Assembly (NCBI GenBank): GCA_905479395.1
Contig: CAJQMI010000127.1
Coordinates: forward strand, 1-36,510
Length of the DNA stretch: 36,510 nt
Direction of reading: 5' to 3'
DNA from: an uncultured Flavobacteriales bacterium
Lineage (GTDB): Bacteria; Bacteroidota; Bacteroidia; Flavobacteriales_D; Sanyastnellaceae
In this document: in pieces, positions 8,813-25,964 of the stretch
How the letters are laid out: each line of letters starts with the position of its first letter
Position numbering within the stretch: the stretch's first letter is position 1
Notes under the pieces: model-generated
Databases searched by the model: none
Seen by the model: only the letters and a program-made list of their open reading frames with translations
Told to the model about the DNA's origin: nothing
Translations under genes and position numbers: made by a program

Positions 8813-11062
8813 TCAAGGACAAGGTGTTCCGAAGAAAACGAGGAAAATCAATAAATCTTGAACGTTTGTTTGATTGTCATTCGTCAAGTCGCCAAAGCAA
8901 GGAGGACTCGAGCAACCAATGTCGCTGAGAAAAAGCAACAAGTCCGATGAGGTTATTTGTCCATCGTCGTCGAAATCGGCGGGACATGGGCAGTTTTCAA
9001 ATTGACAACTTCCATCGTCAGAGGTTGCTGTATCATCAAAGTTACAGGCTTCTGAATTTGTGCAGCCCGGGTTGTCAAAGTCGCCTTCACAGAGCCCGTT
9101 AAAGGTGAGGGTTGTTTCGTACGATGCTCCATTGGAGTTGTTCCAAGAATTCAAGATTGTAATTGTCCAAGAACCAATCCCTTGGATCGGTTCTTCAAAT
9201 ACAACGGATGCCGTGTATGTTCCTTGCGCACTGGTATTCCAGTCGCCTGGCCACAGCCCTGCACTTGGGCAGTCCAGCGATAAATTGTAACCTCCTATCT
9301 GCAGGCAGGTGCCATCAGGAGACGTGAGGCCCACCATCATTTCGTTGGCCCAAGATTGGTCCGGTGGTAAATCTTGAAAGACCAGCACAGCCTCCAATCC
9401 AGTGACAAAACCAGCCCCTTGGATCGTTTCGCTTGCGGTTTCGCCCGCGCTTAGGTTGACATCAAAGGATGCAGCGTGCAAGCATGCGCACGCGGCCCCA
9501 TCCGGAGCCAAATAGCAGCTCCCGTCTTCGATCAGGGCCTCTGCGTCGTAATTGCAGGCGAGTGGGTCTGTGCAGCCAGAGCATGATTCGTTGTTGCCTC
9601 CGCATACCCCACAATCGTCAAATGTCAATGCACATGTGCCGTCATCCAAAATTGCATCCAAATCATAATTGCAAGCTTCAGGATCTGTGCAACCATAGTA
9701 ACTGCAGCTGGTTGTCCAGTCCACACAATCTCCAAAGCAAGATCCGTCTGCGCTGATCGTGGGAATCAACGCTTCGCTGATGACGGTCGGGTGAAAATTT
9801 AGATTCACTGAACCCCCAGCAACTGCGTGGCAATAACTCATCATGGTTCCGACCTGAGATTGTGGGTCGTTGGCGCAACTCCCTTCGACGTCATAACAAT
9901 TGTCAATGGGGCCATTGGACCACCCACACCAATGCGTGTGATTGGATCCGAAATTGTGCCCCATTTCATGGCCTACGACGTTGAGGTTCCAACTGTAATT
10001 GTTGAGGTCGTAGGTGTTGCCTGTTTGAAGGTAAGAGCTAAAACCAGCCGCATATTGTGGGAAGCAAACAACATCGAGGTAGGCTATCCCTCCTGTGCCA
10101 GTGTTTTGTCGTCGAGTCAATAAGTGCACCAAGTCACGCTGTACCTCCATGAGGTTCGCATTGGTCAACCATTCCAGCCGAAAGGCGTCAAGCATGGCGC
10201 CTGAATTGCTGGTGATTTCATCGTAAGGATCGACCGTCTCCCAAACATGAATGTAGGAGGCTTGGATGTTGATGGTGTTATCGAGGTCGTTGGTATAAAT
10301 CGTATTGACGCCAGCCATGATGGCCAAAGCCCATTCAATGGCAGGATAGCATTCGTTATCGAATGTCCCAAACGTATGAAAATCGATGTCAAAAGCCACC
10401 TCCACACACGAAGTCGAAGTGCTCTGCAGGGACGGCTGCATGCCCATGGGTGCGGCCTGCCGAAACGGACGAATTTCATCCGCATTGCATTTGAATTCCA
10501 TGGGTTGCTTGGCGTCTGATAGCAAGAACAAGACATGCCGTCCAGACGCTCCGTTTTCAATGGCGCTGATGTCATATTGTTGGCCATTCCACTGCAATGT
10601 GCCCATGACATATTGTTCCATGATCACGAGTGTCCCTCGCATACCCGGGCTCACGATGCGATACGACAATAGCTGTGGGATGTACGATTCCTCCTCATAT
10701 TTCCCCGTGGGCAGTGATCTTCCAATTTTAAAATCAGCGGAAAATGGAAGGAACGATTCAAGTTCAATTTGGAGTTGCTTTCCGTCAAGGAAAGGCAAGG
10801 TTATAGAGAGTTCATTGTACTTGCGTGACCTGAGCTCTTGAAATGCATCGGCGTTAAGAGCGAGTCCAACTTGGTTTTTGGCCAGTCGCGTCGGTTGCTC
10901 CATACCATTGATTTCAATGGCTGAGAACAATGCGACCGCATCCTCTGCTTGCGTGCATTGACCCGACAATTCAAGCGAAAGCATCATCGCAAGCGCGAGT
11001 GAAAAAAAAGCGCATGAACGGGACCAAAAAGAAAAGAAAGAACCGCCGGTTGTCATGACCAT
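8813..11062 (-). CDS. Secreted reprolysin-like metalloprotease with Cys-rich repeats and dockerin-like tail
   Basis: A protein of about 749 residues. It has a signal peptide (to ~35, ending LSGQC) and a propeptide-like region. The M12B-type catalytic domain has a zinc site HEMGHNFGSNHTH (first His ~365) and Met-turn GTMMSYCH. Then come a GCTDPEACNY...DDGTC repeat, [13 protein letters not shown], another GCTDPLACNY repeat, a P-domain-like beta-sandwich (SPDGTCLQIGGY, GIGSWTITILNSW) and a GCTNSEACNF repeat. A double dockerin-like calcium loop (ADFDDDGQITSSDLL, GDLTNDNQTNVQDLL) ends in GTPCP. No T9SS tail is visible. It is a paralog of the gene at 17490-20000. The start is 11062 or 11056; the open frame continues upstream through antisense tRNA-Arg, which is not coding. 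Confidence 0.9.
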   Translation of the reverse strand: MVMTTGGSFFSFWSRSCAFFSLALAMMLSLELSGQCTQAEDAVALFSAIEINGMEQPTRLAKNQVGLALNADAFQELRSRKYNELSITLPFLDGKQLQIELESFLPFSADFKIGRSLPTGKYEEESYIPQLLSYRIVSPGMRGTLVIMEQYVMGTLQWNGQQYDISAIENGASGRHVLFLLSDAKQPMEFKCNADEIRPFRQAAPMGMQPSLQSTSTSCVEVAFDIDFHTFGTFDNECYPAIEWALAIMAGVNTIYTNDLDNTINIQASYIHVWETVDPYDEITSNSGAMLDAFRLEWLTNANLMEVQRDLVHLLTRRQNTGTGGIAYLDVVCFPQYAAGFSSYLQTGNTYDLNNYSWNLNVVGHEMGHNFGSNHTHWCGWSNGPIDNCYDVEGSCANDPQSQVGTMMSYCHAVAGGSVNLNFHPTVISEALIPTISADGSCFGDCVDWTTSCSYYGCTDPEACNYDLDAILDDGTCALTFDDCGVCGGNNESCSGCTDPLACNYDAEALIEDGSCYLAPDGAACACLHAASFDVNLSAGETASETIQGAGFVTGLEAVLVFQDLPPDQSWANEMMVGLTSPDGTCLQIGGYNLSLDCPSAGLWPGDWNTSAQGTYTASVVFEEPIQGIGSWTITILNSWNNSNGASYETTLTFNGLCEGDFDNPGCTNSEACNFDDTATSDDGSCQFENCPCPADFDDDGQITSSDLLLFLSDIGCSSPPCFGDLTNDNQTNVQDLLIFLVFFGTPCP

Positions 11063-11095
11063 CAATTTAAATAAAGATAATGCATTTCTATTTCG

Positions 11096-11103
11096 CATCT
11101 TTG
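11096..11103 (+). promoter_or_regulatory. Candidate -7 element of tRNA-Arg
   Basis: CATCTTTG differs from TAnnTTTG at one position and lies 15 bases before the tRNA, the same distance as for tRNA-Pro. No TTG is found 19 bp upstream. Confidence 0.45.
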
Positions 11104-11118
11104 CACCGTCTGAAAATT

Positions 11119-11195
11119 GGTCCCGTAGCTCAACTGGATAGAGCATCTGCCTTCTAAGCAGACGGTTTTGGGTTCGAGTCCCAACGGGATCACCA
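11119..11195 (+). tRNA. tRNA-Arg(TCT)
   Basis: The acceptor stem GGTCCCG pairs with CGGGATC (one G-T pair). The anticodon stem TCTGC/GCAGA holds the loop CTTCTAA with anticodon TCT. The T arm is TTGGGTTCGAGTCCCAA, and CCA is encoded at 11193-11195. It lies between the divergent protease and DUF4920 genes. Confidence 0.96.
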
Positions 11196-11242
11196 TTGAA
11201 TCCTGACTTCTCGGTTGCTGTGTCAAACGAAAATGTTTCTCG

Positions 11243-11250
11243 TACATTGG
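11243..11250 (+). promoter_or_regulatory. Candidate -7 element of the DUF4920 gene
   Basis: TACATTGG matches TAnnTTTG at 7 of 8 positions and lies 4 bases before the ATG at 11255. It is the same variant and spacing as before the UMF1 gene at 3166. Confidence 0.35.
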
Positions 11251-11254
11251 ATGC

Positions 11255-11761
11255 ATGAAAAATCCTTTTCAAATTTCCCAGGTGCTTTGCGGAGCGGCCA
11301 TAGCAATAATAGGCACCGTTGGATGCAGTTCTTCTGACAACGCAACAGCTCCAGCTTCTGATTTTGAAGGTCAGACTTTTTATGGTTCCGTCATTGAGTT
11401 GAGTGATGCCTTGGATGCACAAGGTTTGCGTTCTGTTTTGGTAGACGAGGGCCGGGCTCAGGTTCGCTTTCAAGGCGAGGTTGCGGCGACTTGTGCCAAA
11501 AAAGGATGTTGGATGGACGTCGCTTCAGGAGAGGACACGGTATTTGTTCGGTTTCAAGATTACGGTTTTTTCGTGCCAACGGAAGGCGCTGAGGGAAAAC
11601 AGACGGTCATGGAAGGAGAGGCTTTTTTTGATACCATCACGGTCGAAATGCGCAAGCACTATGCTGAGGATGCAGGCGAATCAGAGGAATTCATTGCTGG
11701 GATCACAGAACCGGAATTGCGATTGGCCTTCACGGCGACCGGTGTGATGATTGAAGACTGA
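11255..11761 (+). CDS. DUF4920-family lipoprotein
   Basis: This 168-residue protein has a lipoprotein signal peptide (IIGTVGCSS, lipidated Cys ~24). The domain has the DUF4920 hallmark VAATCAKKGCWMDVASG, followed by VFVRFQDYGFFVP, a small beta-rich fold with a CxxxxC pair. Its function is unknown; the cysteine pair suggests a metal or redox role, by inference only. The next gene begins 10 bp after its stop, or overlaps it if a TTG start is used, and carries a possible haem motif. The two are probably one transcript in the envelope. Confidence 0.85.
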   Translation: MKNPFQISQVLCGAAIAIIGTVGCSSSDNATAPASDFEGQTFYGSVIELSDALDAQGLRSVLVDEGRAQVRFQGEVAATCAKKGCWMDVASGEDTVFVRFQDYGFFVPTEGAEGKQTVMEGEAFFDTITVEMRKHYAEDAGESEEFIAGITEPELRLAFTATGVMIED

Positions 11762-11771
11762 CCTGAAAGCG

Positions 11772-12224
11772 ATGCGCGAAGCCTTGAAAAATAGCAAAGC
11801 AGTGTGGATGGTGTCCGTTTTTTCACTCGGCCTCGTTTTTTGCGGCGTTGAGGACAACCCACCCGAGGCCAAACTCGCACCGATTCAGCCAAATCAAACT
11901 TCTGAATTGGCGCAGGCCATGCGCACCATGGACAGCGAACTCGTTGACCTTCTTGCTCAGCATGCCCAAACGGACAATTGGATAGGCGCTTCATTGTCAC
12001 CAATGGACTTGACCCGATTGATGCCAACCGATAGCAGCATGTTGGTTCAAGGATACAAGGCTTATGCTTTGGCTTTCGCAAACCACGTGGGTTCCTTCAA
12101 TGAAAATCCGAGTGCTGAGACTTATTCAAAGGTTGTGATCGGTTGCCTTTCATGCCATCAACAGGCTTGTCCAGGTCCTATAGAGCGCATCAATAAGCGT
12201 AAGCTCGAACCGTTCGTTCAGTAG
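11772..12224 (+). CDS. Exported protein with a single CxxCH haem-c motif
   Basis: About 150 residues. A hydrophobic N-terminal segment (VWMVSVFSLGLVFCG) is a signal or anchor; the LVFC sequence is not a canonical lipobox. A helical region (SELAQAMRTMDSELVDLLAQ) follows, and near the C-terminus GCLSCHQQACPGPIERI contains CLSCH, the covalent haem-c binding pattern. The CPGPI extension after CxxCH is familiar from small uncharacterised Bacteroidota proteins, a memory rather than a search result. It could carry electrons or sense a ligand. The ATG at 11772 is chosen over a TTG at 11751, which would overlap the DUF4920 gene by 11 bases. Confidence 0.75.
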   Translation: MREALKNSKAVWMVSVFSLGLVFCGVEDNPPEAKLAPIQPNQTSELAQAMRTMDSELVDLLAQHAQTDNWIGASLSPMDLTRLMPTDSSMLVQGYKAYALAFANHVGSFNENPSAETYSKVVIGCLSCHQQACPGPIERINKRKLEPFVQ

Positions 12225-12445
12225 CGCGCGAACATTTGTGAGATTGGCATTTTGATGCTGGATGGAGCTTGGTTAATTCTGTTTTTATCGGTTCTTCGAA
12301 TCGAGGGCAATAGGAACAGTGATAATTTGATCAGGATTCAGACGGCTCAGTGGTTCCGACTTATTCCGCAAATTTCATTATATTTTGGGCAAAGCAATGA
12401 AAAGCGTTTGTATGCTCTATTTGCTGTAACCCAAATGAAAGCCTT

Positions 12446-13129
12446 ATGATGCTCCCCAAATCCGGAGAAATTCCTTTGCAGGAATTGGACTGCAAATTGC
12501 CTTTTCTACCAGCAATGCAATCTGATGTTCTAGCCGCAGGAAGGGCTTTTTTATTTGAACAAGAGACCGTCGTATTTCGAGAAGGAGAAAAGCTGAAATG
12601 GGCGCTAATTCTCGTGAAGGGGGCCGTCCGATTGTTTCATCGAAACCACAACAGTGATCGCGAATTGATGATGTATGAGGTGGCGCCGAAAGCACCTGCT
12701 AAGATAACTTGTGTGACTTTCTATAGTGCCGAATACGAGGTGAATATGTGCGCTATGGCAGAACCAGACTCCATTCTTTTGTATATCCCTGTTCCTGTTT
12801 TAGAGAAATGGGCAGATACGAGCTTGGAATGGAATAAGCTGGTGGTTGAGTCGTTTCGCTCAATCTTCGATGCACTGGTTTGTACGCTCAAAAGTGTTGG
12901 CACCACCAATTTGGAGGAAAGGATTCTGTACCTTTTGAAATGTCGGGCTCAGCGTGAGGGCAGTGATGTTATCCAATTGACGCATCAACAAATCGCAAAT
13001 TTTGTAGGCTCTTCCCGCGTGGTGGTGTCTCGCATTTTGAAGGAGGTTGAGACCCGTGGTGAAATTGAGCTCCAGCATGGTCGTGTCAAATTACGCTCCC
13101 TCTCTTCTGTTGAATCTTTGGCGGTTTAA
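12446..13129 (+). CDS. Crp/Fnr-family transcriptional regulator
   Basis: This 227-residue protein has an N-terminal cyclic-nucleotide-binding-like beta-barrel (FREGEKLKWALILVKGAVRLF at ~45-65), a long dimer helix and a C-terminal Crp-type winged helix (LTHQQIANFVGSSRVVVSRIL). Between them is TNLEERILYLLKCRAQREG. The phosphate-binding residues of true cAMP receptors (the RxS motif) are not seen, so cAMP is an unlikely ligand. There is no N-terminal Cys cluster for an Fnr-type iron-sulfur centre, although scattered cysteines (16, 89, 102, 146, 165) exist. The upstream CxxCH/DUF4920 pair hints at redox control, without direct evidence. The 221-bp gap before it shows no clear promoter. It converges with the SGNH gene, 9 bp apart. 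Confidence 0.88.
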   Translation: MMLPKSGEIPLQELDCKLPFLPAMQSDVLAAGRAFLFEQETVVFREGEKLKWALILVKGAVRLFHRNHNSDRELMMYEVAPKAPAKITCVTFYSAEYEVNMCAMAEPDSILLYIPVPVLEKWADTSLEWNKLVVESFRSIFDALVCTLKSVGTTNLEERILYLLKCRAQREGSDVIQLTHQQIANFVGSSRVVVSRILKEVETRGEIELQHGRVKLRSLSSVESLAV

Positions 13130-13138
13130 GGGCTTTGT

Positions 13139-14395
13139 TCAGCGTTGAATAAGCACTTTTTGCGTTCCCGTTGATACCCCATCAACCCGGGTTTCGAGGA
13201 AGTATAATCCTGCAGGGATGAATGAGACATCGAGCACGTACGCGTCATTTGACGTCCACTCGGCAACCCTCACTCCTTGGCAATCGTTCAGGAAAAAACA
13301 CGACCATTCTCCCGTGGGGTTGACCACCCATATCGATTCTGTGGCTGGGTTCGGGTAGATGTCAGGTTCTGTGGTTTCGTGCTCTTGCATGGAACTAGTG
13401 CCCGAATAAAATGTTTCTGAGAACGCGATTGGTTCAGAACAGCCACTGTAGATAATGGCCTCCAGAGTGACGCTTTCTGCAAAATTTAAGGATGCAATAT
13501 CTCCATCTTGCATGATGAAATCGAATTCGCTGTTACTCACCCAAATGCTATCGACGTAAGGGCTTGCGCTGACCTGAATGTTGCAGCCTTCAGGAGTGGT
13601 TTGGCTATAAAATTCAACCTCAAGGAGGTCGTACTGCAACCACGCATTGGGTTGATCCTGCCAAACATCCCAGATTGCTTCATCAATGGTGGTGCTCACA
13701 CCAAGGCCAATGGGTCCAGAGTATTCAGATTCTTGCGGGTTCTCTCCGAACAATGCGACAAACATCGTGCTGGCTGCGAGGTAAGAACCAGCGGCTGATG
13801 GGTGCGATCCGTCGGCATTGTACAGATTGATGCTTGTGAGATCCAAGACGTCTTCCCATATCATGCCCACAGGTGCGCTCCATGATTGGGTGTTGTTCGC
13901 GGCTTCCAAGTAGCGCTCTGTCAAGAGCTCTTGCATTCCTCCGTAGGTGCAAACTGGCGGCCACCATTCACAATTTTGCGCATCTCCATTTTCGCGTCCC
14001 CAAGTCATGTAAAGCAAAGGCACTGCACATTCATTGTGCAAGTGAATGGAAGCCACTAGCGCCTCTACGGCTGGAAAAAAGTCAGCAACCACCTGATCAT
14101 ACGGCAACGATGCCTTTTGACTTTGTTCTTGCAGAACAACGTAATCCCAATCGCCCTGTTCGATGAGGCTTTGGGAAGTTGTGTTGCTCAAGTGTCCTTG
14201 TAAACTGGCGCCTCCGGGCGTGTTTTGAGCCGTCACAACAACATGTCCCATGCTTGCTGCTAATTCGGAAAGAATGGTCGGGAGGTCATTGAAAAATGTG
14301 TAGCTGTTTCCAAGAAATAATACCCGAGTCGTGTCTTGTGCCATCGCCGCTGGCATGGCTAACAAAAGAAGAAGCAGAGATGAGAAGTGTCGCAT
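13139..14395 (-). CDS. Secreted SGNH-family hydrolase with T9SS type A sorting domain
   Basis: This 418-residue protein has a signal peptide (LLLLLLAMPAAMAQ). Its SGNH/GDSL-like hydrolase domain has block I VLFLGNSYTFFND with the nucleophile Ser, a central VLQEQSQKA block and the terminal DxxH motif in NADGSHPSAAGSYLAA. It is probably a carbohydrate esterase. An Ig-like linker region follows. The last ~80 residues are a typical T9SS sorting domain: YPNPATESIWV at the start, then IPAGLYFLETRVDG and a basic end (KVLIQR). The protein should cross the outer membrane by type IX secretion. It contrasts with the neighbouring Cys-rich repeat proteins, which lack this tail. Confidence 0.88.
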   Translation of the reverse strand: MRHFSSLLLLLLAMPAAMAQDTTRVLFLGNSYTFFNDLPTILSELAASMGHVVVTAQNTPGGASLQGHLSNTTSQSLIEQGDWDYVVLQEQSQKASLPYDQVVADFFPAVEALVASIHLHNECAVPLLYMTWGRENGDAQNCEWWPPVCTYGGMQELLTERYLEAANNTQSWSAPVGMIWEDVLDLTSINLYNADGSHPSAAGSYLAASTMFVALFGENPQESEYSGPIGLGVSTTIDEAIWDVWQDQPNAWLQYDLLEVEFYSQTTPEGCNIQVSASPYVDSIWVSNSEFDFIMQDGDIASLNFAESVTLEAIIYSGCSEPIAFSETFYSGTSSMQEHETTEPDIYPNPATESIWVVNPTGEWSCFFLNDCQGVRVAEWTSNDAYVLDVSFIPAGLYFLETRVDGVSTGTQKVLIQR

Positions 14396-14451
14396 GCAGA
14401 TTTCGATAGAGTCTGCAATTTAGGTCGAAAAGAAGCCGTCATGTGTCCAAG

Positions 14452-15603
14452 TCACTCGCAGGGATTGCCGTAGCTCTCGAAGAAAATCAAGAGATCAAAC
14501 ACATCCACAGCGCCATCTCCGTCGATGTCCGAGACGCACGGAGCAGGATAATCGCAAGCTCCTGGGACATTTGCATTGACGTCAAAATCAAATCCAATGG
14601 GATCCATGCAGCCGAGGATGAGGCAATTGCCATCATCTTCTATCGCTGCTGCGTCAAAATTTAACGCGGCGGGATTTGTGCAACCAGCAAAAATGCAATT
14701 TCCATCATCATAAGTGGCAGTTGCGGTGTAATTGTAAGCCATTGGATAGGTGCAGCCTCCAATGACACAAGTGCCATCATCAAGTGTGGCATCCGGATCG
14801 AAATTGTCCGCATCCGGTTGGGTGCATCCAGGCAAATCTTCTTGCTCCTCGCAATCGCAAACGCCATCGCTGTTGGCATCAAGGCAGTTGCCATCGCAAT
14901 CTTCACAATCCAACGGGTAGATGCACGCAGAGCTGTCCGTTCCGTCGGGTGTGTAATTGCAAGCAGTGGCATCGTCGCATCCACTTGGGAAAATGATGGA
15001 TACGTCTTGAACCACGCTGTTTTGGCTTTGAAAACCATTGATGAACATTTGAATGTTCAGGCTACTTTCAACGATTCCCGAGGTGGTGAGCTGTCCAATG
15101 AGCACCCGAAGATCATCTCCCGCGGCAGCCGTGGGATCTCCGGCGAGGCTAAAGATTGATCCGCCGATGGAGTTGTCAACTACAAAATCGCCTCCTGAGT
15201 TGAATGAATTGAAGGCGCCTTCCATCCCAATCGTATTTCCCATATTTGAACTTTCGCCCGAGTTGGAGGCACCGATGGTCAGCCAAGAGTCGTATTGGAT
15301 GAGAGGAAAGAATGGGAGCAATGCGGGATTGATCTCCCAGCCCAGATCTGAACCCAAGGACAAGTTGTAAAAGCTAGTGGTTGAAGAGATGCTCAAAGGG
15401 CTTTCTGAATCCCCGAAAATTGCAGAAATCTCATCGTCTTCGTTGGTCATTTCAACATAAATGCGGTACGTAATCATTCCTTCCAATTCAGCAATTCCAG
15501 TGGTATCGTGATTGGCGAAAGGCTCCGCAATTATTTGTGTGATTTGCCCCTGAACGAAAGTTGTGAGCATGCAAGTGAAGCACGCGAGAAGTAGAATTCT
15601 CAT
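14452..15603 (-). CDS. Secreted Cys-rich repeat protein with TYRIYV/DSWLTIG module and dockerin-like tail
   Basis: This 383-residue protein has a signal peptide (MRILLLACFTCMLTTFVQGQ). Residues ~25-205 form one copy of a module also present four times in the giant protein at 20208-25964. Its landmarks are [40 protein letters not shown] and VLIGQLTTSG. Several GC...DDGTC or DDGNC repeats follow (GCDDATACNY, GCTQPDADNF, GCTYPMAYNY, GCTNPAALNF, GCMDPIGFDF) around a Cys-rich TSP3-like stretch (DANSDGVCDCEEQ). One dockerin-like loop (SDIDGDGAVDVFDLL) leads to the end, YGNPCE. No known family name applies; a calcium-binding surface or matrix protein is inferred. The first 46 codons of the longer open frame are non-coding upstream sequence. 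Confidence 0.82.
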   Translation of the reverse strand: MRILLLACFTCMLTTFVQGQITQIIAEPFANHDTTGIAELEGMITYRIYVEMTNEDDEISAIFGDSESPLSISSTTSFYNLSLGSDLGWEINPALLPFFPLIQYDSWLTIGASNSGESSNMGNTIGMEGAFNSFNSGGDFVVDNSIGGSIFSLAGDPTAAAGDDLRVLIGQLTTSGIVESSLNIQMFINGFQSQNSVVQDVSIIFPSGCDDATACNYTPDGTDSSACIYPLDCEDCDGNCLDANSDGVCDCEEQEDLPGCTQPDADNFDPDATLDDGTCVIGGCTYPMAYNYTATATYDDGNCIFAGCTNPAALNFDAAAIEDDGNCLILGCMDPIGFDFDVNANVPGACDYPAPCVSDIDGDGAVDVFDLLIFFESYGNPCE

Positions 15604-15641
15604 GGTGGTTGGTTTTTCGGTAAAGCGTTGTGAGGCGTAAT

Positions 15642-15649
15642 GAAAGATA
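15642..15649 (-). promoter_or_regulatory. Candidate -7 element of the 383-residue repeat protein gene
   Basis: On the minus strand TATCTTTC (one mismatch to TAnnTTTG) is preceded by a TTG after about 20 bp. It lies 38 bases upstream of the ATG at 15603. Confidence 0.45.
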
Positions 15650-15809
15650 GGTACAAAAATTATAGAATACAAAAAAACATATTTCGTCGAAATTATAGAG
15701 TTGAAATGGAAATGAAGATGTGCGCTGAGTAAAAAGATCAATCGGTTTGTTTTCGAGGATCGATTGACCAGAATACCTTACTTTAAGCGCACCGAATACA
15801 TGAGTAATT

Positions 15810-16877
15810 ATGAAATGTAAACCTACTTTTTTCCTTGTATCTGCTGCGTTCGCTCTAATTGTGGTCACCAGCTGCGGCGATGAATCAGAGCCAGGATTTT
15901 CAGAAACCCAATCCGATCGCGCTGAGTCTCCTTATGCGATGGTGTTTTCTGCAGAACAACAATTGGAACGTGAGGCCAAATGGACAGAGTCCGGTGCACG
16001 TCGCATAGAATTGTCCAGCGGTCATAAAGTTTTTACTCAGACGTTCGGGGAGAATCCCGAAGTCTGCATCTTGGCCTTGCATGGTGGACCGGCAGCCACG
16101 CACGAATATTTGCTTTCTCTAGCCTATGATTTGCCGACGAAACACGGATTTGAGGTGGTTATGTATGATCAGCTAGGGAGTTTTTTCAGCGACCAACCGA
16201 CCGAGGATATTTGGAACATTGATCGATGGGTGGAGGAAGTCGAGGAGGTTCGGAAGTCCCTTGGTTATGATGCATCCAATTTTTATTTGCTCGGCAACAG
16301 TTGGGGAGGGATCCTCGCGATGGAATACGCTTTGCGGTACCAAGAGCACCTCAACGGTCTCATCGTTTGCAACATGGTTTCCAGCATTCCTGAATATGCA
16401 GATTACAATGTCCAGGTCCTGAGACCTCAGATGCGTCCGAGTTTATTGGATTCGCTAAATGCCTTTGAAGAAGCCGGTGATTTTCAAAATGAAACCTACC
16501 TCGAATTGATTCAAAATGAATTTTATAACAAACACATTTGCCGTTTAGAAGAATGGCCAGAGGAGGTTGATGTTTCTTTTGCTAAGATGAATTACCCGTT
16601 GTACGACCTGATGCAGGGCCCAAGTGAGTTTAAAGTCGGTGGTCGCCTCATTGATTGGGACATCACGGATCGATTGAAGGATATATCTGTGCCTACACTC
16701 ATGGTAGGTGCCACCTATGACACCATGGATCCCAAGGCGATGAAACGTCAGTCAGGATTGGTTCAGGACGGGCAGAGTCTCACGTGTGAAAATGGATCGC
16801 ACCTCTGCATGTGGGACGACCGCGAGACATTCATGTCGGGAGTTGCCGATTTTATCGCTGGCATTGAAACCAGGTGA
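15810..16877 (+). CDS. Proline-iminopeptidase-like lipoprotein (alpha/beta hydrolase, S33)
   Basis: This 355-residue protein has a lipoprotein signal peptide (VVTSCGDE, lipidated Cys22). The alpha/beta-hydrolase fold carries the prolyl aminopeptidase signatures LALHGGPAATHEY (oxyanion HGGP, ~90-100), YDQLGSFFSDQP (119-130) and nucleophile elbow GNSWGG with Ser164. The acid residue is likely in GATYDTMDP and the catalytic His in NGSHLCMWDD. All triad positions are present. Members release N-terminal amino acids, often proline, from peptides or hydrolyse amino-acid amides. As an envelope lipoprotein it could trim peptides made by secreted proteases, such as the metalloproteases nearby; this link is inference. 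It is convergent with the next gene, 26 bp apart. Confidence 0.9.
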   Translation: MKCKPTFFLVSAAFALIVVTSCGDESEPGFSETQSDRAESPYAMVFSAEQQLEREAKWTESGARRIELSSGHKVFTQTFGENPEVCILALHGGPAATHEYLLSLAYDLPTKHGFEVVMYDQLGSFFSDQPTEDIWNIDRWVEEVEEVRKSLGYDASNFYLLGNSWGGILAMEYALRYQEHLNGLIVCNMVSSIPEYADYNVQVLRPQMRPSLLDSLNAFEEAGDFQNETYLELIQNEFYNKHICRLEEWPEEVDVSFAKMNYPLYDLMQGPSEFKVGGRLIDWDITDRLKDISVPTLMVGATYDTMDPKAMKRQSGLVQDGQSLTCENGSHLCMWDDRETFMSGVADFIAGIETR

Positions 16878-16903
16878 TTGGCAACAAGAGGCTCATTTAC
16901 CTT

Positions 16904-17473
16904 TTACTCAGTCTCCGAGAGCTGCACGAAAAAAGTGGGTTCACTTGAAGTGCCTATGCATCGAACTCCTTGGGATTTGGTGTCCACAACGAGTGCGTAT
17001 TGTCGGTAAGCACCTGTGTCTGTGGCAGCCAATTCACACACGATTGCTCGCAAGCGAGGTGGGCTGGCTGATGCGTCAATCGAAGGAGGCTGATTCTCGT
17101 CAATTTGTCCCTTCCAGGTGCCTTCGAAATTCATGATTCTTCCATCGTCGACGACCTGTTGCAAGGAAGCCACTCCATCTTTGCGGATGGTAAAAGTGAA
17201 TTGACTTCCTTTGACATTGGCGGCCATGCCCCGCACGACGATGGGCTCTCCATTTGCATTGTACATCGGATACTCTGGCTGATCACCCCTCCAAGTGCCA
17301 TTCCAAGATTCAACGGCAAAAATCGGTTCATCAGTGCGATGTTCCTCGACCACGGCAACGGCAATTTCTGACTTGGAATCTTCCGAGGATTGAGCTGAGG
17401 GCTTCGCAACTTCGGCGCATCCCACATGCAGCAAACTTCCCAAAAGAACGAGCGGTAACATGTTCATAGCCAT
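16904..17473 (-). CDS. Putative lipoprotein of unknown function
   Basis: I recognise no family. The 189-residue protein has a short hydrophobic N-terminus with a lipobox-like LLHVGC (Cys19) and then a Ser/Glu-rich linker. A beta-rich domain begins with SWNGTWRGDQPEYPMYNANG, contains FEGTWKGQI and ends in TFFVQLSETE. The two GTW(R/K)G motifs suggest a small barrel such as those in extracytoplasmic lipid- or ligand-binding proteins, but this is only a pattern guess. It lies 16 bp upstream of nothing on its strand; the protease gene stop at 17490 precedes it, so read-through from that gene is possible. Start alternatives are Met3 and Met5. Confidence 0.72.
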   Translation of the reverse strand: MAMNMLPLVLLGSLLHVGCAEVAKPSAQSSEDSKSEIAVAVVEEHRTDEPIFAVESWNGTWRGDQPEYPMYNANGEPIVVRGMAANVKGSQFTFTIRKDGVASLQQVVDDGRIMNFEGTWKGQIDENQPPSIDASASPPRLRAIVCELAATDTGAYRQYALVVDTKSQGVRCIGTSSEPTFFVQLSETE

Positions 17474-17489
17474 TGTTTTAGCGTGTCGT

Positions 17490-20000
17490 TTATCCCGCTG
17501 TGCATGATTCGCTAAATTGACTCAATAGAAGCAGCAAGTCACTCACATTGGTGTTGTTATCCCCGTTGATGTCGCCAATGCAAACCGGCACGTCACAACC
17601 ATAGTCCGCCAGAAATATCAGAACGTCGATGACGGCGATGATTCCGTCGTTGTCCAAATCACCAGCGCAGCTGTTGCAGTTGTAAGTGCACGTTCCATTT
17701 TCGATGGTTGCACCAGGATCATAATTGCAAGCTTCGAAATTGGTGCATCCAGCGCAACTGAAATACTCGCAGCTGTCGTCTGCAATGGTGGCGTCCAAAT
17801 CGAAGTTGCATGCTCCTACTTCGGTGCATCCTAGACAGGTGATGAATTCACATGACCCATTTTCGATGGTGGCGCCTGAAGTGTAATTGCACGCGGAAGC
17901 GTCGGTGCACCCATAGCAACTTTCAAAATCACAGCTTCCATCGTCTGTCGTGGCAGCGGGATTGAAGTTGCATCCAAATGGATCCATGCAACCTTCGGGA
18001 TCAACTTCCAAACACAAATTAAAGATGGAAATATCGGCTTGAAAAGTCGCGCCAGCTGAACCACTCCAACCATTTCCAATGCGGATGTACCAGTTTCCGA
18101 TTCCTTCGAGTGCATTTCCGATATTGGCTCCTACCGTGTATTCTCCATCCGCAGTATTCTGCCATGAAGACGGCCAAAAGCCTTGGCTGGTGCATCCAAA
18201 ATCTACGTCGAACCCTCCAATTTGAGTGCAGCTTCCATCTGGTGATTCGATGATGACAGCGAGGTCGCTCGCCTCGGTCAAGTCTTGCTGGGAATTGCTG
18301 AATTGAAGGGTGACGTAAACTGTGGCAGCTGAACCGAATCCACTTACTGCAGTGCTTTCAGTTTCTCCCGGGCCCAATTCGGCTTCAAGAGAAACGATGG
18401 CTTCGCAATTGCATGCTCCTCCGAGTGGGGAGAAAAAGCAAGACCCATCATCAAACAAAAATGCTTCGTCATAATTGCAGGCAACAGGGTCCGTGCATCC
18501 GATGCATGACATCCCATCTCCTCCGCAAACTCCACAATCATCTGGCAAGGTGCATGACCCATCGTTAATTTCCGCATCCGGGTCATAATTGCAATAGAAA
18601 GGAAGGGTGCAGCCATAATTTTGGCAGCTTGTGGCAAATTCATCGCACGAGTCAAAACATGAACCTTGACCGTTGATGGTTGGAATCAAAGCGTTGTTTT
18701 CTATGGTGGGATGAAATTCGAGGTTCACGGATCCACCTGATACGGCATGGCAGTAGCTCATAATGGTTCCCGTCTGTGGAGCTGGTGTATTTGAACAACT
18801 TCCTTCAGCAGCGTAGCAGTCATCAACGGGGCCTCCGGGCCACCCGCACCAGTGGGTGTGATTGGAACCAAAGTTGTGCCCCAATTCATGCGCAACCACA
18901 TTCAGATTCCAGCTATAGTTGTTCAAATTGTATGTCATTGATGGGTTCAAGTAGGCGGAGAATCCAGCGGCATAGTTTGGACTGCAAACCACATTGAGAT
19001 ATGCGATTCCACCAGTGCCGGTGTCCGGTCTGCGTGTCATAAGATGAATCAAATCTCTCGGTCGATTTGCCAGGTCGGGGTTGTTGAGCCATTCAAGTCG
19101 AAAGGCGTCGAGCATGGCTCCGGCATTGCCGACAAACGATGCGTAAGGGTCTGATACCTCCCAGACATTCACGTAAGACGCCGATAAGTTGATCAAATTA
19201 TCCAGTTCTGTTTCATAGATTTCCGAAACTCCCGCGAGCAGTGCCAACGACCACTCAACAGAATTTGCACAACTCTGATTGAAGGAGTTGTACGTGTAGA
19301 AATCGATGTCCAATGCCACTTCTACGCATGATGATACCGACGATCGTTGGGAACGAGGCGCTGGTACATGCTGACCAGACCTTACGTTTTTTTCTGCTTC
19401 GTCCATGCCGCAATGAAAGGCGGGTGGGTTGATGGCATCGGAAATATCGAAGAGCACGTGGAGTTCCGTTGCTGTTTGATTGCATTCCAATCCTCCAATT
19501 TCATATTGAACTCCTTTGTGCCTCAGGGTGCCGGCAATTTCGTCCTGCATGATGACAAGGGTTCCGTTGAATCCTGCAGTTCCGAAGCGATAGGTCAGCA
19601 ATTGTGGCGTATAACGCTCGGTCCGCACTCCATCTTTGGTCATGTGGCCAATTTCGAAATCAACTGTATGGGCAAGAAAGCGATGCATTTCAACCCATTC
19701 ATGTGTTCCATCCGGAAGCGATACTGCCAACGTCCAAAGATCAGGTCGCGTTGTTTGCAGCTTGCTTTTTACGATTTCATTTGTCGTCAGGAACAAGGCG
19801 GATTCTTTGTGAAGCGTAGGGGAGCACAAGCCGTCAGGGTCATCTGCTGCAATGAATAAAGCCAGGGGTTCCGTAATTTCAATGCAACCCTGCTGGCTGT
19901 GCAATGCAGCCATCGAGCATAAGGTCAGGAACAATGTGGCCCCCATTCGAACCATAAAATGGGTCAATTGAGAGGCAATGGACTGAGTGATTGCCATCAT
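17490..20000 (-). CDS. Secreted reprolysin-like metalloprotease with Cys-rich repeats (paralog)
   Basis: This 836-residue protein has an N-terminal signal segment (LFLTLCSMAALHSQQ). The order of domains matches the protein at 8813-11062: propeptide-like region with YTPQLLTYRFGTAGFNGTLV, M12B-type catalytic domain with HELGHNFGSNHTH (first His 371) and Met-turn GTIMSYCH, a GCTLPFYCNY repeat, [13 protein letters not shown], a GCTDPVACNY repeat and a P-domain-like sandwich (SPDGSCTQIGGF, GIGNWYIRIGNGW). Five further short Cys repeats follow (GCMDPFGCNF, GCTDASACNY, GCTEVGACNF, GCTNFEACNY types). Two dockerin-like loops (GDLDNDGIIAVIDVL, GDINGDNNTNVSDLL) end in ESCTAG. The same Cys pattern in the two proteases and the giant neighbour suggests joint assembly or processing. 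It is divergent from the giant gene. Confidence 0.9.
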   Translation of the reverse strand: MMAITQSIASQLTHFMVRMGATLFLTLCSMAALHSQQGCIEITEPLALFIAADDPDGLCSPTLHKESALFLTTNEIVKSKLQTTRPDLWTLAVSLPDGTHEWVEMHRFLAHTVDFEIGHMTKDGVRTERYTPQLLTYRFGTAGFNGTLVIMQDEIAGTLRHKGVQYEIGGLECNQTATELHVLFDISDAINPPAFHCGMDEAEKNVRSGQHVPAPRSQRSSVSSCVEVALDIDFYTYNSFNQSCANSVEWSLALLAGVSEIYETELDNLINLSASYVNVWEVSDPYASFVGNAGAMLDAFRLEWLNNPDLANRPRDLIHLMTRRPDTGTGGIAYLNVVCSPNYAAGFSAYLNPSMTYNLNNYSWNLNVVAHELGHNFGSNHTHWCGWPGGPVDDCYAAEGSCSNTPAPQTGTIMSYCHAVSGGSVNLEFHPTIENNALIPTINGQGSCFDSCDEFATSCQNYGCTLPFYCNYDPDAEINDGSCTLPDDCGVCGGDGMSCIGCTDPVACNYDEAFLFDDGSCFFSPLGGACNCEAIVSLEAELGPGETESTAVSGFGSAATVYVTLQFSNSQQDLTEASDLAVIIESPDGSCTQIGGFDVDFGCTSQGFWPSSWQNTADGEYTVGANIGNALEGIGNWYIRIGNGWSGSAGATFQADISIFNLCLEVDPEGCMDPFGCNFNPAATTDDGSCDFESCYGCTDASACNYTSGATIENGSCEFITCLGCTEVGACNFDLDATIADDSCEYFSCAGCTNFEACNYDPGATIENGTCTYNCNSCAGDLDNDGIIAVIDVLIFLADYGCDVPVCIGDINGDNNTNVSDLLLLLSQFSESCTAG

Positions 20001-20196
20001 TTAGCGATTGGTTGAATCTGTAAAGTAGTGATTTTCGGTCAGATGAAAATACGTTGGGCTTAAAACGCAACTTTAACAGCGTGAACAGCGTAGAGGAAGG
20101 CGTTCGTGCTGCTTAAAACCTAGACAGCGCGGTGTATTTTAGATTTATAATCGAAAAAAATACCGACGAACGATAGTATAATACACATGAATTTGC

Positions 20197-20204
20197 TATC
20201 TTTA
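20197..20204 (+). promoter_or_regulatory. Candidate -7 element of the giant repeat-protein gene
   Basis: TATCTTTA (one mismatch to TAnnTTTG) lies 3 bases before the ATG at 20208. If used, it rules out the upstream ATG at 20187. Confidence 0.35.
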
Positions 20205-20207
20205 ATA

Positions 20208-23200
20208 ATGAATTGGATTCAATCCGCGATGAAATATTCAACTATCACAACCACATGGAAGCGCTTTTCGCTGCTTTCAATCTCCACCTTGTTCCTTTCG
20301 GCAGCAGGGTTTTCTCAGTTTTCAGGTCTGGAGAGCGAAATTCACGCCACATCTGAACACGGAACAACTTACCGCATTTATGCGCACTTTGACTCGCCTA
20401 CCGACGAGGTCTTAGCCGTGTATTCTATTGGTCAGGAAGAAGACGGCACGGTGAATCTCGATCTAGAGACCACCACCAGCTTCTTCCAAGAGACAACCTA
20501 TGGGGTAAACTTGGCTTCTGACTTGTTTGGCTTTTTGCTTGGGATGTTTCCGAACGTAGCCTACGACAGTTGGTTGACCATTGGTTCCACAAGCAATACC
20601 GATCCTTCGGTTGCGAGCATCGGAATGTCCGGAGCTTTCATCGACTTCAATACGGGATCAGGTTTTACATTGGATGGATCTGTTGGTGGCAGCTGGTATG
20701 TTACTCCAGGTTCCAATGCGCTTGCCATGGCCGGTGAGAACGGAAAAGTATTGTTGGCTCAATTGACTGCAGCGGATGCCGTCGATGGAGTGGGACATGT
20801 GACTTGCAACTGGAACATCAATTGGAGGGACGCCAATGGAAATCCCCACTATGAGCAAGAGATTGTGTTGAATACACTCGATTTTGTTGTTGAAGAATAC
20901 GGTTGCATGGACGAATTGGCCTGCAACTTTGATGCGACAGCAACAGCAGATGATGATTCATGTGATTATTTGGATGAGTGCGGCGTTTGCGGCGGGTCAG
21001 GCATTGCAGATGGAACTTGCGATTGTGATGGATCCCTCCCGGATGCCGGATACGATTGTGCAGGAGATTGTCTTGCTGACGAAGACTCTGACGGGGTATG
21101 CGACTTGTTTGACCCTTGCGTAGGAACGTTGGATGCCTGCGGCATTTGCAACGGTCCTGGTGAGATTTACGAGTGCGGTTGCACTGACACTCCTGAAGGC
21201 GACTGCGATTGCGATGGAAACGATTTGGACGCATTGGGCGTTTGCGGAGGCTCTTGCAATGCAGATGCAGATGCAGACGGTATCTGCGACGATGCAGATG
21301 AGTGTGTTGGTTCTTTGGATGCTTGTGGCATTTGCAATGGTCCAGGTGATGTTTACGAATGCGGGTGTGCCGACATTCCTGAAGGCGATTGCGATTGCAA
21401 CGGAAACCAATCAGACGCTTCTGGTGACTGCGGTGGGGCTTGCTCTGCCGACGCCGACGAAGATGGAATTTGCGATGACATTGATTCATGCGTAGGTGAA
21501 TTGGATAGCTGTGGCATTTGCAATGGTCCAGGTGCTATTTATGACTGTGGCTGCGATGAAATGCCTGCTACTGACTGCGATTGCGATGGAAACGAATTGG
21601 ACGCCTTAGGCGTTTGTGGAGGCGCTTGTTCGGCCGATGTTGATGCGGATGGCATCTGCGATGATGTGGACGAATGTGTGGGCACTTTGGATGCTTGCGG
21701 CATTTGCAACGGTCCAGGAGCGATTTATTCTTGCGGCTGTTCGGATACCCCTGAAGGTGATTGCGATTGCGATGGCAATGTGCTCGATGCGCTCGGTGAG
21801 TGCGGAGGTTCTTGCGTGGCTGACGTGGATGAAGATGGCGTCTGCGATGCTGTTGAAGTCTTTGGCTGCACCAACGAATTAGCGATTAATTTCCAAGCTT
21901 CTGCAACCGAAGACGACGGAAGTTGTGATGTGCCGACCTACCCATTCTTGAATGCATCTGTTCATGCGACGGGTGCCGAGGGAACAACGTATCGTTTGTA
22001 TGCACATTTCGAGAGCCAATTTGATGAGTGCATTGCAATGTTTGCAGTGGGTTCGGACGAATTGTCGCCTGTGGAACTCGACTTGGAGGTTTCAACCAAT
22101 TTCTTTCAAGTTCCCCTAGGGATGGGTGGATCTGATTTGGGTTCAGGCATTCAAGAATTTTTGTTTGCAATGTTCCCAGAGGTCGAACTTGACAGCTGGG
22201 TGACCATTGGTTCAGCAAGCAGTTCAGATGGTGATGTGAGCTCTGTGGGGATGTCTGATGCTTTTTCAGAGTTTAACACCGGTTCCGGATTCACTTTGGG
22301 CGGCGTGACCGGTGGAAGTTGGTATGTCATTCCAGGCACAAACTCCTCAGCTGTTGCTGGAGAGGACGAAACAGTCTTGCTCGGTCAGTTTACCGTTGCA
22401 GATGATGAAAACGGCGATCCAGGAATCTTAAGTGGAACGTGGAACATGCAATGGCGCGCAGAAGGACAGACGACGGTTGAAAACCGCGGTCTAACATTTA
22501 CCACAGCGGACTATGTGCCACCTGTGTTGGGTTGTACAGACGATATGGCCTGCAATTTCGATGTTGACGCCAACACCGATGATGGTTCGTGCTTGTTCAC
22601 GGATGATTGCGGAGTTTGCGGCGGTTCAGGCATTGCATCTGGCGCTTGCGATTGCGATGGCAATTTTCCAAACTCAGGCTATGACTGCGATGGCGTTTGC
22701 TTGACCGACACCGATGGTGACGGCGTATGCGACGAATTTGAAGTTGAGGGTTGCACCGATGCCACAGCTTGTAATTATGAAGAGAATGCAACGGATGATG
22801 ACGGTTCATGCTTACAGCTTGACGATTGTGGAATTTGCGGGGGTGCTGGCATTGCCGAAGGATCGTGCGGTTGCGACGGTACGTTCCCCGAAGATGGATA
22901 CGATTGTGATGGCAATTGCCTCATCGATTCTGATGGTGACGGAATCTGCGATTCATTTGAAATCCCAGGTTGTACCGTTTCAGTAGCGTGCAACTATGAC
23001 GCTGCAGCTACCGACGAAGATGGTTCTTGTGTTTATGCAACACCCGGCACCAACTGCGGTGGTGATTGCATCGATGATCATGACGGGGATGGCATTTGCA
23101 ATGAATATGAATTGGCAGGATGTACGTCTTCTTCGGCTGTGAACTACAACACTCAAGCCACAGACGATGATGGCTCATGCGAGTGGCCTGAAGGCCTCTT

Positions 23201-25964
23201 TACGGGCCTGAGTTATGAACTCGTTGGCCACGATTTGATTGAAGGCACTTCGACGTATCGCCTCTATGCGAATTTTAATGCAGATACAATTATCCAAGTG
23301 ACTGCGGCATACGGAACGCAGGAGGATAACTGGGCAATCAGCTCTACCGAGCCATTCTATCAAGATGAAAATGGAAATTTATTGGCACAAAGCATCAACC
23401 CAGATTTCTTCACCTTCTTTCCAACAGTAGAATTTGATTCTTGGTTGGCCTTGGGAGGAGGACCGGGATCGCCTGTTGCCTTGCAATCGGTGGGCCTTGA
23501 AACCTTCTTTGCCGACTTTGAAGAAACAGGTGCAGATGTATTGGTGAATACGGCTGTCGGAGCCAGCCTTTACTACATCCCTGGAAACATGGGAAGCCCT
23601 CTTTCTTTTGTAAGCGATGGACAGATGCTCTTGGGACAATTCACAACTGCCGGTGTCGTTTCAGTCTCTTACAACTTGCAATTCCGGGATGAAGCCGAAT
23701 CATCGCACTATGCGACCGATTTAAACTTGGTCTTCCCTGAATTTGGTGTGGGTTGCACAGATGAAACAGCTTGTAACTTCGACGTTGCTGCCACCGATGA
23801 TGACGGCACATGCTTTTACGAAACAGCGTTCCGCGATTGCGAAGGCGCTTGCAACAACGATACGGATGGAGATGACGTTTGCGACGAAGAAGAAATTCCA
23901 GGTTGCACAGATGAAACAGCATTCAATTACAATGCATCAGCTACAGATGAAGACGGCACGTGCTTGAGCATCGGTTGTTTTGATGAACTTGCCTGCAATT
24001 ACACCCCTGATGCAGATGTCAATGTGCTTGACACATGCGAATATCCTGAACCATTCTCAGATTGTGATGGCAATTGCAATGGCGACTACGAAGGCGACGG
24101 CATCGAAGAGTGCGCTGAAGTTGCAGGTTGTGCGTCAGAATCAGCCAATAATTTCAATCCATTGGCGACCAATGATGATGGTAGCTGTGAATGGGGAGAT
24201 GACACTTTCCAAGGTTTGATTTATGAATTAGTAGGCGAGAATACAATCGATGCGGCCACCACTTACCGGGTTTACGCTCAGTTCGATACCGATGCTGCAG
24301 TGGACATGACCTCGCTCTTTGGAAATTCTCAAGACCCTTGGTTGACCACTTCTACGGAAAGTTTTTATCAGCATCCGCTCGGAGCCGATTTCGGAGGAAA
24401 CATCAACCCTGGATTTTACGGACTCTTCCCTGAGTTGGAGTATGACTCTTGGTTGACCATTGGTGCTTCTCCCGGGGACTACAATGCGCTTGCTCAAGAA
24501 AATATGTATCTGTACTTGCCTGAATTCAACCTCGGCAATGATTTGATCATAGACACAGAGATGGGTGCACAGATTTTCTTAAATCCAGGTGCCTCGGATA
24601 CACAGGGAGTCCCAGATGAAGAAGGGCGATTGCTTGTGGGACAATTCACCACCTCTGGTGTTGTTTTCTTGCGGTACAACATCCGATTCCAAGGCGCAGA
24701 TGATGCCCTCTATGAATACACCGATGTGGAGTTGACCTTCCCTGCAGTCGAGGGTGGTTGCACGGATGAAGGAGCATCTAATTTTGATCCTTCTGCCAAT
24801 TTCAATGACTTGACTTGCATCTATGATGGGTGTACGGATGAGACGGCAGACAACTACAATCCGGCCTCGAACTTGAATGATGGATCTTGCTTGTACTTCG
24901 GCTGCATGGATACAGATGCGGATAACTATGATGCGCAGGCCAATGGCGGCGATCAGGATGCGCTTTGCCTCTATTCAGGTTGCATGGATGCAACGGCAGA
25001 CAACTACAATGTTCAGGCCAACACAGGTGATCAACTGGAGCTTTGCATTTATTACGGTTGCACCAATGATATAGCTGATAACTACGATTCAGGCGCCAAT
25101 GTGGATGATGGATCATGTCTGTTTACGGGTTGCTTTGATGCCGCAGCGGACAACTATTACGCACTGGCAAATACAGGAGACCAAGATGAGCTTTGCGAGT
25201 ACTTGGGTTGCACCGATTCTAGTGCAGATAACTTTGACTCAGGTGCAAACGTGGATGATGCTTCTTGCCTATACACGGGTTGCATGAATCAAATTGCAGA
25301 CAACTACAATGCCCAAGCAAACACCGGGGATCAAGACGCTCTCTGTTTGTACACGGGTTGTATGGATAGTGTGGCTTCAAACTTTAACCCCATCGCGAAT
25401 ACGGGCGACCAAGAGGTGTTGTGTGAATACCTGGGCTGCACCAATTCAGATGCAGACAATTTCAATTCAGGTGCCAATGTGGATGACGGTTCTTGTATTG
25501 TTGCAGGATGTATGTATGACGATGGAGTCAACTACAACGCAGCAGCGACTTACGACGATGGGTCTTGCTTGTTCCCTGTTCAGGGTTGCACGGATGAGAA
25601 TGCGAGCAACTACAATGCTGAAGCGGGAATGGAAAACGGTTCATGTTTGTTCAGCGGTTGCACCATAATCTCAGCGACGAACTACGATGCTACCGCGTCA
25701 ATTGACGATGGCTCGTGTGAATTTGCTGGTTGCATGGATGAGGCGGCTTGCAATTATGATGTGAATGCGACATCCGATGATGGCTCTTGCCTGATTGTCG
25801 GTTGCATGGATACAGATGGATTGAATTTTGATCCCAACGCCAACTTCCCAGGCGGTTGCGATTATCCAGACGCCTGCCCGGGTGACATCAATGGCGATTC
25901 GTTCGTCGATGTATCGGACTTGCTCACATTCTTCCAGTATTACGGAACTCCTTGTCCTGAATAA
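20208..25964 (+). CDS. Giant secreted Cys-rich, TSP3-like and GC-DDGSC repeat protein
   Basis: About 1,918 residues. A signal segment ([17 protein letters not shown]) is followed by four copies of an unnamed ~185-residue module (about 20319-20880, 21940-22515, 23194-23735, 24204-24740). Landmarks are TYR(I/L/V)YA and DSW(L/V)(T/A). Between copies lie GCxDxxACNF...DDGSC repeats, CGVCGGSG motifs and DxDxDGxCD calcium loops like thrombospondin type 3. These include four tandem 62-residue units at 21105-21848. The C-terminus has 15 short repeats (24756-25859) and one dockerin-like loop ([15 protein letters not shown]) ending in GTPCPE. I know no named family; an extracellular adhesin or matrix scaffold is inferred. 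Starts at 20187 and 20229 are alternatives. Confidence 0.88.
21105..21848 (+). repeat. Four tandem 186-bp coding repeats (62 residues each)
   Basis: Equivalent codons fall at 21105, 21291, 21477, 21663 and 21849, exactly 186 bp apart. Each unit reads roughly [19 protein letters not shown], xYx[11 protein letters not shown], LDALGxCGG and DxDxDGICD. The units differ by substitutions only, with no length change. Confidence 0.92.
24756..25859 (+). repeat. Array of 15 GC(T/M)D...C repeats (24-26 residues each)
   Basis: Fifteen consecutive units start with GC plus T, M or F. They fall in two length classes: about 24 residues ending in GANVDDGSC-type sequence, and 26 residues ending in ANTGDQDxLC-type sequence. 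Only unit 14 keeps the middle Cys (AACNY) common in the rest of the family; most others read ADNY or ASNF. Confidence 0.9.

Follow-up and report, generated by a model that had tools for sequence, protein, structure and literature searches.

The window, by which we mean the whole 36,510-nucleotide stretch of DNA analysed here, holds four ORFs whose products end in calcium loops flanked by cysteines, two of them metalloproteases and two of them repeat proteins. Two neighbouring genes provide the contrast of a T9SS type A tail. The features are as follows.

8813-11062, minus strand: M12B (reprolysin-like) metalloprotease of 749 aa, with three DDGSC Cys repeats and a two-unit dockerin tail
8897-8986, minus strand: first dockerin unit of the 8813 protease
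8816-8899, minus strand: second dockerin unit of the 8813 protease, at its C-terminus
13145-13360, minus strand: for contrast, the T9SS type A tail of a neighbour, the DUF4886 protein
14452-15603, minus strand: exported protein of 383 aa, with one YR domain, Cys repeats and one dockerin unit
14455-14538, minus strand: C-terminal dockerin unit of the 14452 protein
14974-15504, minus strand: YR domain of the 14452 protein (unnamed; candidate receptor module)
17490-20000, minus strand: M12B metalloprotease of 836 aa, with Cys repeats and a two-unit dockerin tail
17580-17669, minus strand: first dockerin unit of the 17490 protease
17493-17582, minus strand: second dockerin unit of the 17490 protease, at its C-terminus
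20208-25964, plus strand: protein of 1918 aa in a scaffoldin-like layout, with four YR domains, Cys-rich repeats between them and one C-terminal dockerin unit
20334-20888, plus strand: YR domain 1 of the 20208 protein
21954-22517, plus strand: YR domain 2 of the 20208 protein
23220-23747, plus strand: YR domain 3 of the 20208 protein
24228-24749, plus strand: YR domain 4 of the 20208 protein
25875-25961, plus strand: C-terminal dockerin unit of the 20208 protein
29358-29540, plus strand: for contrast, the T9SS type A tail of a neighbour, the sortilin/PKD protein

The four ORFs and their ends are as the preliminary description of this DNA had them: the proteases (8813 and 17490) carry two loops and the repeat proteins (14452 and 20208) one, and three of the proteins close with FGTPC, YGNPC or YGTPC and the fourth with SESC. 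The loop motif given there holds as a calcium-loop end, but its opening “GD” is not strict, as PAD and VSD also occur. A six-frame regex scan of the window returned the six units listed above as its sole matches. None of the four proteins was thought to have a T9SS tail, and indeed no NCBIfam T9SS tail model matched any of them; the unit does not score as a T9SS sorting domain with these models. The two neighbours were said to be T9SS-tailed, which is the case by six-frame search (25.5 and 27.6 bits), but the assignment is marginal, the whole proteins scoring 22.8 and 22.1 bits vs a cut-off of 23.

The conserved frame of the unit reads C-x2-D-x-[ND]-x-D ... D-[LV]-L ... C, in which the D, the L and the last C were invariant in 29/29 C-terminal units. 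That the tail is dockerin-like was confirmed by sequence profile and by predicted structure, the fold comparison being made with the two-unit form. A profile of the two-unit tail matches solved dockerins (best 2y3n_B, E = 1.2e-5), and an AlphaFold model of the last 92 residues of the 8813 protease (mean pLDDT 76, with blocks at 91-95 in residues 41-80) was aligned by Foldseek to 2y3n_B with prob 1.00, a TM of 0.82 by target length and 1.8 A over 58 columns; the best 25 PDB rows were all dockerin-containing entries. Acidic or polar residues occupy positions 1, 3, 5 and 12 of the loop and a helix follows, as in dockerins, with two copies in the two-unit tails only. Judging by the pattern of residues, the units may bind Ca2+ and their flanking cysteines are probably stapled by disulfides.

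With the curated models, the window proteases score 14.2 and 13.2 bits against PF00404 (Dockerin_1; cut-off 22.9), neither one-unit window protein was matched by it, and 17/33 tail pieces of the genome match it at E <= 1. At the same E-value, 14/33 tail pieces match NF041540 (GC-type dockerin), whose cut-off of 29 bits is passed by two of ten two-unit tails (L038, 36.0 bits; L050, 34.4 bits) and also by L113 (33.4 bits), and is missed by the window proteases (24.4 and 19.7 bits). Because the profile and the predicted fold both match 2y3n_B but few tails pass NF041540, we regard the tail module as a dockerin by fold and sequence and as a borderline relative of the GC-type dockerin by curated thresholds. 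GC-type dockerins had been rightly picked out as its nearest named relatives.

A profile built from the six window units gave 56 matches in the 2.29-Mb source genome, 54 of them at E <= 0.05 and the best at 2.7e-17. This abundance is far above chance, as 23 genomes of the order that lie outside the family have 0 or 1 match each. The unit is present in 40 ORFs, 35 of which end in units and 5 of which have units elsewhere (internal or N-terminal). Among the 35 tailed ORFs, which include several contig-edge or very short frames (e.g., L035:2-112 and L054), 33 stop no more than 8 residues past the unit, and L048 and L053 end in a weaker second unit. By Pfam, 33 tailed proteins contain a mixture of domains, with FG-GAP in four, reprolysin in three, LTD in two and CotH, endonuclease I and others in one each. 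At L044:5644-11178 there are three tandem FG-GAP proteins, all dockerin-tailed; L150, another FG-GAP protein encoded in this genome, is their homologue and is T9SS-tailed. At L039:1981-3702, L067:456-2534 and L086:12786-13799 one internal unit is followed by a conserved domain of ~200 residues, which we take to be FISUMP-like.

The relatives sampled were 60 genomes, 22 of the same genus, 15 others of the family and 23 from other families of the order. Unit matches numbered 31-57 in each of the 22/22 same-genus genomes and 1-105 in 15/15 other genomes of the family; in the other families, 3/23 genomes (G039, G044, and G059) had one match each and 20/23 had none. With 37/37 genomes inside the family vs 3/23 outside, the dockerin tail is a family-level expansion. 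A phylum-wide sample, in which up to 20 candidates were scored in each genome, had at least 3/395 genomes with a unit match, two of these from Sanyastnellaceae. Most of the named protease loci are on MAGs of Flavobacteriales, and Flavobacteriales bacterium UBA1531 (L064 and L082) is the nearest of them. The protease loci L113 and L089 come from MAG contigs assigned to Euryarchaeota (SP189) and Chryseobacterium gleum, which are probably mis-binned.

The idea of a genome-wide C-terminal tag on exported proteins is supported by these data. In addition to the 35/40 ORFs of the source genome, the unit is C-terminal in 108/113 uncut ORFs in the relatives' loci, although these 108 are not independent of one another as 64/108 are M12B-protease-like. 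The expectation that the carriers have signal peptides was upheld in part: a crude script was positive for 22/30 complete-start ORFs, and 6 of the other 8 have a signal peptide by eye, but the script is weak evidence as it is too permissive, with 67/203 background ORFs also positive. As for the Cys-rich repeats described as shared by the window proteins, they are real and are enriched in tailed proteins (regex match in 24/35 tailed vs 4/60 T9SS-like ORFs; Fisher p 2e-10), but they form a separate module which is often, not always, found with the tail. The repeat was rejected as a required part of the tag because 11/35 tailed ORFs have no regex match; among the 11 there are 4 frames that are very short or lie at a contig edge, and two, L046:5374-6519 and L052, that show a degenerate repeat by eye. 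Some T9SS-tailed proteins carry Cys repeats as well. In the scans run here, neither Pfam nor NCBIfam matched the GCTDxxAxNYxxxAxxDDGSC repeat (window 9000-9100 and many tailed proteins), and the Cys-repeat profile weakly matches macrophage-expressed gene 1 (perforin-2) structures at residues 327-357 (E 0.0086-0.02).

The source genome has 84 T9SS type A tail matches, 71 of them over the cut-off. The dockerin tail had been expected to exclude T9SS tails, and no ORF examined carried both: the YPNP motif occurs in 0/35 tailed ORFs of the source genome, the unit profile found a single 1.5-bit match, which is noise, among 60 T9SS-like ORFs, and the unit is present in 0/35 T9SS-like ORFs of the relatives' loci. 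The M12B protease was followed at 76 loci, where 59 proteins are dockerin-tailed, 3 have a T9SS-like end, 6 have another end and 8 are cut. The three proteins with a T9SS-like end, L128, L132 and L137, and the contig-cut L139 pass the T9SS-tail cut-off (45.2, 35.4, 39.6 and 33.5 bits, respectively), and the T9SS-tailed homologues are among the less similar relatives of the protease (31-38% identity). L129, L130 and L135 were considered as further T9SS-tailed cases, having half a tail by eye; L129 and L130 had no T9SS-model match and none of the three was counted. Within the source genome, where the T9SS status of a partner means an HMM match in a six-frame search, 11/31 tailed proteins have a T9SS-tailed relative once repeats and YR are masked. 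The closest pair is L047 with L141 (61% identity over 439 residues), and the tailed L043 and its T9SS-tailed relative L164 lie on the same contig (C139). There is thus good evidence from sequence comparison that the two tails are alternatives at the same place, which does not imply that they do the same job.

On a tree of the catalytic part of the protease the dockerin label has to change four times or more, partly through rows of unknown tail, so that a single origin or single replacement of the tail is unsupported. The tree holds 66 of 78 rows, the 12 dropped rows (including L129, L130, and L135) having been missed by the zinc-motif regex. The numbers of units and of T9SS tails show a weak inverse trend (rho -0.43, p 0.11), in which the T9SS numbers are those of first-look candidates, as the tail counts of the relatives are limited to 80 in any one genome. 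SprA was found in all but one of the 60 genomes, the exception being 64% complete. A second T9SS translocon was considered and rejected, as SprA looks to be single-copy and, where it matches twice, the two matches are parts of a single gene. The SprA match is split near model position 1565-1575 in several of the family's genera (G000:C133, G001, G027, G028, G031, and others), which suggests an insertion. Adaptation of SprA to the tail was dropped as a reading of it because the split does not track unit number, the tail-rich G025 and G032 having no split match.

The unit also has a relative that lacks the cysteines, YNPD-x-D ... DLL, which hhalign pairs with the C-terminal form at 95.9% (E 6e-9) and which was found in 22/22 genomes of the genus (1-10 matches each), 6/15 other genomes of the family and 0/23 others.

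L198-L227; G000:C112:4744-4839 and C122:4340-4435: Cys-less N-terminal units

By eye, it lies directly behind a signal-peptide-like stretch in the 30 fetched loci, and the proteins that bear it often have repetitive trimeric-adhesin-like sequence. A place at the mature N-terminus is unexpected for a C-terminal secretion signal, whereas a docking module fits either end. The suggestion that the tail is a sorting tag is thus unsupported, given this N-terminal relative, the fold of a binding module and the fact that no sorting enzyme was identified.

If the tail docks, the YR domain is a candidate for its socket. It is predicted to be all-beta (~155 residues; pLDDT 90, pTM 0.86 for the model), and had no Pfam match above chance among 38 members and no PDB sequence match. 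It was rejected as a cohesin by sequence (none of the 38 members matched a Pfam cohesin model, and hhalign gave a probability of 0.2% with six cohesin domains from Flavobacteriales). By fold, the best Foldseek row is a cohesin at a weak prob of 0.25; with VIA the best Z is 5.0, to a pilin, and cohesins, at up to 4.8, fill 20/50 rows and are tied with collagen adhesins, all within a range that is common for this tool.

YR and the dockerin unit are present in the same 40/60 genomes, including the same three outside the family, a coincidence of three outsiders among 23 having a chance of 1/1771. These three genomes represent three different families, and in each the sole dockerin-tailed gene adjoins YR genes; the lone tailed proteins are homologous to each other and to the tailed L032 of the source genome. 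Two of the clusters, L251 and L252, have 9 YR ORFs between them; T9SS tails were found in 7/7 of those scanned, and no NCBIfam T9SS tail model matched any of the three dockerin proteins of the outside genomes. In the family, 33/58 tail-bearing proteases have a YR ORF no more than 3 kb away and 25/58 have none in that range, as against 0/9 loci with a YR ORF in range where the protease has no dockerin tail; at 11 tail-bearing loci a YR-only protein is 8-52 bases away. In the source genome three YR proteins are T9SS-tailed (L142), five are dockerin-tailed and two are cut by contig ends. Copy numbers of YR and unit correlate across genera (rho 0.89, n = 15), a relation which is trivial in part, since dockerin-tailed proteins themselves carry many of the YR domains. 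The main alternative to YR as a socket is indeed a chance correlation between two family-specific modules that partly share the same proteins; however, fusion does not explain the clusters of the three outside genomes or the YR-only neighbours, and these are evidence for a link.

We propose, giving it an even chance, that the tail is a dockerin docking plug that stands in place of the T9SS tail and has YR as its likeliest candidate receptor. In Sanyastnellaceae a dockerin module has spread over some 35 exported proteins per genome, at the place where their homologues have the T9SS C-terminal domain (CTD). The tailed proteins would leave the cytosol by Sec and would not be recognised and cleaved as T9SS cargo; instead, a receptor would hold them in a Ca2+-dependent manner, presumably at the outer surface. 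YR is the best candidate for this receptor, its carriers being T9SS-tailed proteins, dockerin-ended multi-YR scaffold-like proteins and small YR-only proteins beside dockerin-tailed proteases. The outer membrane might be crossed by a route of the proteins' own, or by riding folded with a T9SS-exported YR partner.

A fuller version of this proposal, which we advance only tentatively, is a cellulosome-like display that is independent of cohesins. Dockerin-tailed enzymes, adhesins and scaffolds would plug into YR, and the YR carriers would be exported and anchored by the T9SS, so that the cargo could reach the surface or be held there without a T9SS tail of its own, possibly crossing the outer membrane folded together with the carrier. 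At least three other Flavobacteriales families would have kept the founding locus, in which T9SS-tailed YR genes lie next to a single gene for a dockerin-tailed protein, and Sanyastnellaceae would have expanded it.

The position of the unit, which ends 0-8 residues before the stop in 35/40 ORFs, would also be expected if the unit itself were a C-terminal export or sorting signal, that is, a new class of CTD read by the T9SS or by a dedicated translocase or sortase. Such a signal would also account for the replacement and exclusion of T9SS tails in homologues, and the near-constant presence of SprA is compatible with it. However, GC-type dockerins occur in Planctomycetes, which are not known to have a T9SS, and no second SprA was seen. 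The related unit at the mature N-terminus and the five ORFs with internal or N-terminal units fit poorly with a signal of this kind. Moreover, known T9SS CTDs are Ig-like beta-sandwiches (PMC11285876), whilst the module here is predicted to be EF-like and helical. On this evidence a sorting signal appears unlikely.

Less likely still is that the tail is a structural cap only, a partnerless end stabilised by Ca2+ and disulfides which protects Cys-rich exported proteins. The predicted fold is small and stable and the Cys repeats accompany most of the tailed ORFs (24/35), as a cap would have it, but a cap would leave unexplained why T9SS tails also take its place in proteins that have no Cys repeats (L038 with L181), the co-occurrence and gene adjacency with YR, and the Cys-less versions at the N-terminus. 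A classical, cellulosome-like cohesin-dockerin system with ordinary cohesins seems very improbable and is largely refuted for the genus: the dockerin fold is predicted and 4/15 other genomes of the family have cohesin matches, but no cohesin was found in the source genome even at E <= 10, nor in any of the 22 same-genus genomes, despite 31-57 units in each, and four of the 5/23 other-family genomes with cohesin matches have no dockerin unit. A cellulosome proper was likewise rejected, on the lack of cohesins in source genome and genus and the mixed Pfam domains of the tailed proteins.

Should the docking proposal be true, T9SS-bearing bacteria would have a second modular means of surface display, in which one exported carrier with interchangeable plugs takes the place of one secretion tail per cargo, and dozens of exported proteins per genome without a T9SS tail would be explained. 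YR would be the first candidate dockerin receptor outside the cohesin family, the pair would offer a new orthogonal, Ca2+-dependent plug and socket for engineering, and the long-open question of the docking partner of GC-type dockerins would become directly testable with small, expressible domains. A literature search, to which most subscription journals were closed, found nothing on “GC-type dockerin” or on dockerins in connection with Crocinitomicaceae or Cryomorphaceae.

While dockerins, those of the GC type and T9SS tails are already known, three things are new here: that dockerin tails have replaced T9SS tails across a whole family, that the unit has an N-terminal variant, and that it is associated with YR. 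The tails share with the GC-type dockerin (NF041540) two loops, a Cys after each and a C-terminal place on exported proteins, but most of them fall below its cut-off, many have one unit and they alternate with T9SS tails. The tails agree with the type I/II dockerins of cellulosomes (PF00404; PDB 2y3n) in the positions of the loop and in predicted fold, and differ from them in their flanking cysteines, their single-unit forms, the lack of a detectable cohesin in the genus and their carriers, which are proteases and other proteins and not mainly cellulases. The T9SS type A CTD (TIGR04183) is unrelated in sequence and fold and was never found together with the tail in the ORFs examined, but occupies the same place in homologous proteins. 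Finally, YR is not a cohesin by sequence and is a candidate receptor only, yet the proteins that carry it resemble the cellulosome scaffoldin in combining a multi-copy beta-sandwich module, linkers and either a terminal dockerin, as in the 20208-25964 protein, or a T9SS anchoring tail, as in L142:4603-9714.
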